The position numbers and the translations under genes are program-made. Under the pieces are notes generated by a model. It was not told the DNA's origin, did not search any database, and saw only the letters and a list, made by a program, of their open reading frames with translations. DNA of 64,000 nucleotides from a virus: positions 1 to 64,000 of IMG/VR virus record IMGVR_UViG_3300025585_000040, one strand, 5' to 3'. Positions 47,772 through 59,926 of this stretch are shown here, piece after piece (positions within the stretch are counted from its first letter, which is position 1; each line of letters begins with the position of its first letter).

Positions 47772-47855
47772 GCCACCATGCCGGAACGGTCTACGGATCG
47801 CACTTAAAATGCGTCGGGAGTTTCTCCCTTGTGGGTTCGAATCCCACTGGTGGTA
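47772..47855 (+). tRNA. tRNA-Leu (anticodon TAA)
   Basis: Acceptor GCCACCA pairs with TGGTGGT (discriminator A47855). D-arm CCG/CGG, anticodon loop CTTAAAA giving TAA, one mismatch at the stem top (T27-T43), long variable arm GGGAG/CTCCC, T-arm GTGGG-TTCGAAT-CCCAC. Class II structure fits tRNA-Leu reading UUA. CCA is not encoded. A single good tRNA among HNH genes; UUA codons are rare in many Synechococcus. Confidence 0.92.
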
Positions 47856-59650: not shown

Positions 59651-59926
59651 CTACTTGTTCTTCTTCTCGTATTCTTCTTTGGTCATCCACTCTTGTTCAC
59701 CCCAGCGCTTCAGTGACTCCTGACCTTCGGTTTCTTCACCCCTGTAACCACCACCTCGTTTTTTGTACGCCTGGGCGAGTAGTTGTGCTTTCCTAGCCGA
59801 ATAAATTAGTTAGCCTTACGGCTACGACCACTCTCCACTCTTGCCACCTTTGGACCCACGCATGATCTGCTGTTTCAGTCGTTCACGAAGATCAGGTTTG
59901 GTATAGCGCCCTTTGTTTTCAGCCAT
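59651..59926 (-). CDS. Candidate ribosomal-bypass gene, DUF5872-type N-terminal half (82 aa if bypassed)
   Basis: ATG at 59926 opens 34 codons ending in Ser TCG (59825-59827), directly followed by TAG. After 24 nt with three in-frame stops (TAG, TAA, TAA) comes a second TCG (59798-59800), and the same frame continues for 48 codons to TAG at 59651. The two parts join seamlessly as '...KSGEWS' + 'ARKAQLLAQAYKKRGGGYRG', matching a family in which WSARKAQ is continuous. Ribosome hopping from TCG to TCG would give one 82-aa protein. Alternatives: two separate peptides, or a broken gene. Confidence 0.75.
59798..59827 (-). other. Stop-bearing insert with matched TCG borders (bypass-like)
   Basis: Reading the minus strand: take-off TCG, then a 24-nt gap, then landing TCG. 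The gap begins with the hairpin TAGCC-GTAA-GGCTA (5 bp, GNRA tetraloop) that contains the stop codon, and AAGG at its 3' arm could act as a Shine-Dalgarno-like anchor about a dozen nt before landing. Equal codons, a stop at take-off and a take-off hairpin are the known features of T4 gene 60. Confidence 0.65.

Follow-up and report, generated by a model that had tools for sequence, protein, structure and literature searches.

The 64,000 nucleotides (nt) analysed here, positions 1 to 64,000 of IMG/VR virus record IMGVR_UViG_3300025585_000040 and referred to below as the window, are part of a 77.6-kilobase (kb) virus record distantly related to Synechococcus phage S-EIV1. On the minus strand, a small gene of the DUF5872 family (59926..59651) is broken after codon 34 by a 24-nt gap, and it is this gap, a candidate for programmed ribosomal bypass, that concerns us. 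Read from 59926 to 59651, the strand translates as MAENKGRYTKPDLRERLKQQIMRGSKGGKSGEWS, stop, P, stop, G, stop, LIY, SARKAQLLAQAYKKRGGGYRGEETEGQESLKRWGEQEWMTKEEYEKKNK and a final stop: the 5' half ends in ...GKSGEW followed by TCG, the gap codons are TAG CCG TAA GGC TAA CTA ATT TAT, and a second TCG with ARKAQLLAQAYKKRGGGY leads on through to the stop. Joined, the two halves match PF19197 at E 2.7e-5 (Pfam), narrowly short of the family cut-off. The gap opens with a hairpin that has the stop at its start, holds an AAGG 5' of the landing codon and contains the sole TAGCCNNNNGGCTA of the 77.6-kb record (Table 1).

An earlier note on this DNA had described a small gene interrupted by three in-frame stops, two matched TCG codons 24 nt apart, a 5-base-pair (bp) hairpin with a GTAA loop right after the first of them and AAGG 5' of the second; re-reading of the sequence confirmed all of these features with their codons and coordinates. 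Sequencing error was ruled out by a separately assembled contig (L083), identical to the window over 7,024 bases, and by the diverged relatives described below. A structure search returned no significant match in the PDB that would point to a function of DUF5872 by fold. The sole transfer RNA (tRNA) gene found in the window is a tRNA-Leu (anticodon TAA) at 47772-47855 on the plus strand, and no tRNA-Ser for TCG was found there.

Table 1. Positions of the interrupted DUF5872 gene, its putative bypass signals and the adjoining endonuclease gene in the window (aa, amino acids; dN/dS, ratio of nonsynonymous to synonymous substitution rates)
Feature	Position	Strand	Remarks
HNH/endonuclease VII-type (PF02945) putative homing endonuclease, 201 aa	59919..60524	-	Pfam 6e-23; PHROG endonuclease VII 1e-34
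5' half of DUF5872 gene	59825..59926	-	34 codons, MAEN...GEWS, the last being the take-off codon; median dN/dS 0.137 (element-bearing relatives)
Purine run GGAGAG (codons G-E), Shine-Dalgarno-like	59831..59836	-	Ends 3 nt 5' of the take-off codon; putative role
Take-off codon TCG (Ser)	59825..59827	-	TCG in 48/48 element genes read (TCN demanded by the scan)
Take-off hairpin TAGCC-GTAA-GGCTA	59811..59824	-	UAG stop forms the first three bases; stem kept in 48/49
A+T-rich spacer ACTAATTTAT with stop	59801..59810	-	Differs among relatives
Landing codon TCG	59798..59800	-	TCG 47/49, TCT 2; left free by the scan pattern
3' half of DUF5872 gene	59651..59797	-	ARKAQ...EEYEKKNK and stop; open in 49/49

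A family of interrupted DUF5872 genes

A search with the adjoining endonuclease led to a second locus, L104 (67% identical), whose DUF5872 gene is interrupted by the same insert at the identical codon: TCG, TAGCCGTAAGGCTACTTACTTAATGA, TCG. Its gap measures 26 nt, against 24 in the window, which places the 3' half in another frame, and both halves are conserved. When IMG/VR was scanned for the hairpin behind TGG-TCN, 52 contigs matched, and 48 of the matches were DUF5872 genes; because this pattern presupposed the hairpin, a second scan was run that did not demand it (GGK..G.W-TCN-stop), and 48 of its 54 matches were again DUF5872 genes, 47 of these with the hairpin. Together with the contig of L104 (L221), the family comprises 49 contigs with 20 distinct gaps, and the hairpin is present in 48 of the contigs.

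All 49 inserts occupy one codon position of DUF5872, and TAG stands right after the take-off codon in every one (the scan demanded a TRR codon). The loops of the 48 hairpin-bearing contigs are all of the GNRA type (GTAA 31, GTGA 12, GGGA 2, GCAA 2, GAAA 1). Gap length is 20 nt in 2 contigs, 21 in 13, 24 in 21, 25 in 7, 26 in 5 and 30 in one, and relative to the 5' half the 3' half lies in all three frames (35/7/7). The landing codon is TCG in 37/39 distinct element genes, while the same serine is encoded by TCG in 14/75 uninterrupted ones (Fisher 5e-16, kinship uncorrected). The glycine three codons 5' of take-off is likewise GGA or GGG in all 39 distinct element genes against 20/75 uninterrupted genes, and the resulting GGRGAR purine run before the take-off codon may possibly serve as a Shine-Dalgarno-like pause signal. 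Since diverged copies of the arrangement recur on dozens more contigs, an origin by chance is highly implausible.

From the landing codon to the conserved C-terminus, the 3' half is open in 49/49 contigs (in L176, to the contig end). Among element-bearing genes its median dN/dS is 0.122, close to the 0.137 of the 5' half; by frame class the values for the 3' half are 0.097, 0.127 and 0.07, third positions vary most, and the pooled proportion of synonymous differences (pS) reaches 0.77. Judged by these substitution patterns, both halves of the interrupted gene are under purifying selection, as one conserved protein on either side of the gap. The earlier note had expected WSARKAQ to be continuous in other homologues, and so it is in 75 distinct homologues without the insert. 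It had also named relatives decayed on both sides of the gap as evidence against a ribosomal hop; what we found contradicts such decay, for the 49 interrupted relatives have intact halves in three frames with a dN/dS of about 0.13, which lends support to the hop that the note proposed, with a fused product as its presumed outcome.

Endonuclease linkage and probable mobility

The earlier note had missed the upstream endonuclease along with the variable gap length and the breadth of the distribution. The endonuclease gene lies directly upstream on the same strand, its stop overlapping the DUF5872 start. In 41 of the 48 element loci with upstream sequence it ends 94 nt 5' of the take-off codon, and stubs are found there in 5 more (46/48); none of 78 uninterrupted genes has it at that place, and one of them (L032) has a distant relative of it some hundred bases upstream. 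Only a remnant of the endonuclease is left in nine loci and it is gone in L188 and L204, with gap and 3' half intact; taking loci where it is absent or a stub, the insert and an intact 3' half persist in L188, L204, L179, L195, L200 and L215.

The closest insert-free relatives, L084 and L085, match the window at about 77% identity on either flank and lose homology over 60564-59797, that is, over the endonuclease, the 5' half and the gap, and their DUF5872 gene runs without a break (W-AGC-GCC-AGG). The window's 3' half is 82-83% identical to these empty relatives, which are its closest, whereas its 5' half is 65% identical to L084 and finds its best matches in L092 (76%) and in element-bearing contigs (74%). 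This contrast is as expected if endonuclease, 5' half and gap arrived together. In a tree of the upstream neighbour gene, presence of the element switches at least 3-4 times: L084 and L085, which group with the window's lineage, are empty, and so is L003, which stands among the element-bearing L181 and L211. The distribution of the element is thus patchy among close relatives, and we infer that the gap and the upstream endonuclease VII-type gene form one mobile unit, spread by the endonuclease.

Alternatively, the gene could be dead, an endonuclease insertion having left a scar that broke DUF5872 in halves yet to decay, and the window gene does look chimeric, its 5' half a newcomer joined to a 3' half already in place, as after a fairly recent insertion. 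Such an explanation is scarcely credible in view of the 49 contigs with a pooled 3'-half pS of 0.77, a dN/dS of about 0.12 and no stop in any 3' half, and of an element that persists after the endonuclease has decayed. At the level of sequence, the analysis establishes a conserved, frame-indifferent, stop-filled insert with a T4-like take-off anatomy, linked to an endonuclease and patchy in its occurrence.

Proposed bypass and competing explanations

Taken together, the analysis makes it very probable that the 24-nt gap is a programmed ribosomal bypass element and part of a mobile unit with a homing endonuclease. According to this model, which is drawn from T4 gene 60 by analogy, the ribosome would pause with peptidyl-tRNA-Ser on the first TCG, the hairpin would fold in the A site and exclude release factor, and the tRNA would then detach, allowing the ribosome to slide across the gap, re-pair at the second TCG and resume; in the window, the product would be a single 82-aa DUF5872 protein. 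The probable target of the endonuclease is the uninterrupted gene, cut near GxWSARK at a site that the gap would destroy, and, as anatomy and distribution suggest, repair would copy endonuclease, 5' half and gap into the recipient. More broadly, it seems likely, with somewhat less assurance, that S-EIV1-like cyanophages harbour a second widespread bypass family, consisting of a minimal module (TCG pair, UAG, 5-bp GNRA hairpin and a free gap of 20-30 nt) that travels with an endonuclease VII-type homing gene and can outlast it, includes natural in-frame bypass and does without the nascent-peptide signal known from T4.

Several observations weigh against bypass by this route. One member, L225, lacks the hairpin in the take-off region (TAGCTATAATATTAAATAATT before TCG) and its 3' half is still open; in L177 and L224 the landing codon is TCT, mismatched to the take-off codon. 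The element members are of common ancestry, which means that their counts are not independent, and the stem gains no support from covariation because it barely varies. The KKYK nascent-peptide signal of the T4 type was not found in the 5' halves of element genes; another conserved basic stretch there might substitute, though uninterrupted genes share much of its conservation. Finally, no isolated phage in the searched collection carries the element, the family being known from metagenome contigs, and in S-EIV1 itself DUF5872 is uninterrupted. As for further RNA structure, RNAalifold gave clear support to no 5' stem-loop; most members of the gap-25/26/30 class have a 6-bp hairpin at the MLARA codons, but so does the uninterrupted L086. 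L225 also offers a natural test of whether the hairpin is necessary.

The gene might instead be split: translation would end at the TAG and start afresh on a non-standard codon close to the landing site, yielding the 3' half as a product of its own. In many gaps ATT or ATA does stand in the landing frame shortly 5' of the landing codon, with AAGG slightly upstream, and the DUF5872 of other phages is cut further downstream into two reading frames; in the gap-20 class (L178, L185) there is even an ATG that overlaps the Trp codon and shares the frame of the 3' half, which likewise tells against bypass. Outside these two, however, the stretch from the last in-frame stop to the landing codon contains no ATG, GTG or TTG, and TGA immediately precedes the landing codon in its frame in 5 of the 20 gap types, with a stop one or two codons before it in some others. 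In the window, the 3' half offers no possible start before codon 39 of its 49, and the codons preceding that one are conserved. Moreover, in the predicted structure of an uninterrupted relative (mean predicted local distance difference test score 74) the cut falls between the first two helices, and reinitiation would leave the matched TCG codons and the stop-led hairpin unexplained. We regard a split gene as very improbable.

A fused product could also arise by another route, either by removal of the insert from the RNA or by a recoding event other than a matched-codon hop. Sequence alone cannot separate ribosome skipping from RNA removal, and both the landing TCT of two members and the loss of the hairpin in one would fit such a route. 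On the other hand, inserts of 20-30 nt are far below the size of any self-splicing intron known to us, and frameshifting alone cannot serve three frames through stops. The anatomy, in addition, agrees in each of its parts with that of T4 gene 60, an established case of bypass (PMC11194080), and we consider these routes very improbable compared with programmed bypass between the TCG codons.

Beyond the family, scanning IMG/VR for TAGCCGTAAGGCTA gave no convincing second gene among the matches listed, and a detector for a stop-led hairpin with matched codons, applied to 1.8 megabases of DNA, picked up the DUF5872 elements along with T4 gene 60, and otherwise a few matches apparently due to chance. 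Neither the element nor a relative of the endonuclease was found in GTDB genomes. A different DUF5872 lineage (L167, L168, L169, L171, L172 and L173, around TGGTCAGCTCGACATTCGGAA) has a 7-nt insert, CGACATT, right after WSA that changes the frame. Past this insert 9/12 variable sites are third positions of the shifted frame, which makes the lineage a separate candidate for frameshifting or for a hop of 4 nt from CGA to CGG; its loci gave no match to the endonuclease. In other phages, uninterrupted DUF5872 genes (L009, L017-L021 and many of L023-L081) often end at or near GGGYK, with the C-terminal remainder apparently in a separate frame.

If the interpretation is true, the DUF5872 elements would constitute a second and much larger natural family of ribosome hopping, where efficient programmed bypass outside mitochondria had amounted to one gene in one phage. 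The 20 natural variants separate the fixed parts (TCG, UAG, stem, GNRA loop and purine run) from the free ones (sequence and length of the spacer, and frame), and with both visible it becomes possible to test what a ribosome hop minimally requires. With a second endonuclease-linked system, bypass would be a recurring solution to homing, through which a mobile gene could leave its mark in a coding sequence while needing neither intron nor intein. Since gene callers miss such genes, more may be hidden.

Comparison with T4 gene 60 and other bypass systems

Natural cases of bypass include T4 gene 60 and Magnusiomyces mitochondria, and candidates have been described in Streptomyces phage Hau3 and in a Prevotella adhesin (PMC5009743); the open-licence papers searched contained nothing on bypass in cyanophages or DUF5872, and such a case may have been published elsewhere before. 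Ribosomes on the T4 message stop at GGA with a small stem-loop in the A site and slide to a second GGA, assisted by KKYK in the nascent chain and by 5' and 3' stem-loops (PMC11194080). A homing endonuclease split gene 39 in the ancestor of T4, and the gap may guard against its cleavage (PMC5009743); the endonuclease of T4 at that locus is mobA (PMC2988022).

The likeness to gene 60 that the earlier note had pointed out is borne out by the T4 record (AF158101), which reads GGA, TAGCC TTCG GGCTA TCTATAGAAATACCTCATAATTAAGAGATTATT, GGA. Both systems have a UAG right after the take-off codon and a hairpin starting from that UAG, with a stem (UAGCC/GGCUA) that agrees letter for letter; both have a stable tetraloop and stops in the gap, in a phage gene (PMC5009743, PMC2988022), and an HNH-type homing endonuclease nearby upstream, mobA in the case of T4 (PMC2988022). 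The match of the stems argues more for a shared function than for shared ancestry, because the UAG fixes three of the five pairs; identity beyond the stop amounts to two base pairs, and descent from a common element is not claimed. We also considered the insert to be a decayed tandem copy of the ARKAQ codons, since the gap holds CGTAAGGCT, readable as R-K-A; this idea was dropped because the T4 gap has the same stem in a different protein context, and the resemblance is probably a by-product of the hairpin.

The differences are equally clear. T4 uses GGA codons with 47 nt between them, a UUCG loop and a stem extendable to 10 bp, whereas the DUF5872 elements use TCG codons, gaps of 20-30 nt, GNRA loops and 5 bp. 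The latter lie in another gene and another phage group, have an endonuclease VII-type nuclease overlapping the gene start, lack KKYK and vary naturally in gap length, which is often a multiple of three. The mitochondria of Magnusiomyces capitatus (81 inserts) and Saprochaete clavata resemble them in having many natural, short skipped inserts with take-off and landing codons often alike (PMC5009743), but there mitochondrial ribosomes are involved and skipping is apparently independent of messenger context, as opposed to the single site in a phage gene considered here, with its fixed hairpin and adjoining endonuclease. The terminase of Streptomyces phage Hau3 is a candidate for a short bypass in a phage gene, where a Shine-Dalgarno-like sequence precedes the gap and a Trp comes immediately ahead of the site (PMC5009743); it is keyed to a UUA codon instead of a stop and hairpin, and no endonuclease is described there.
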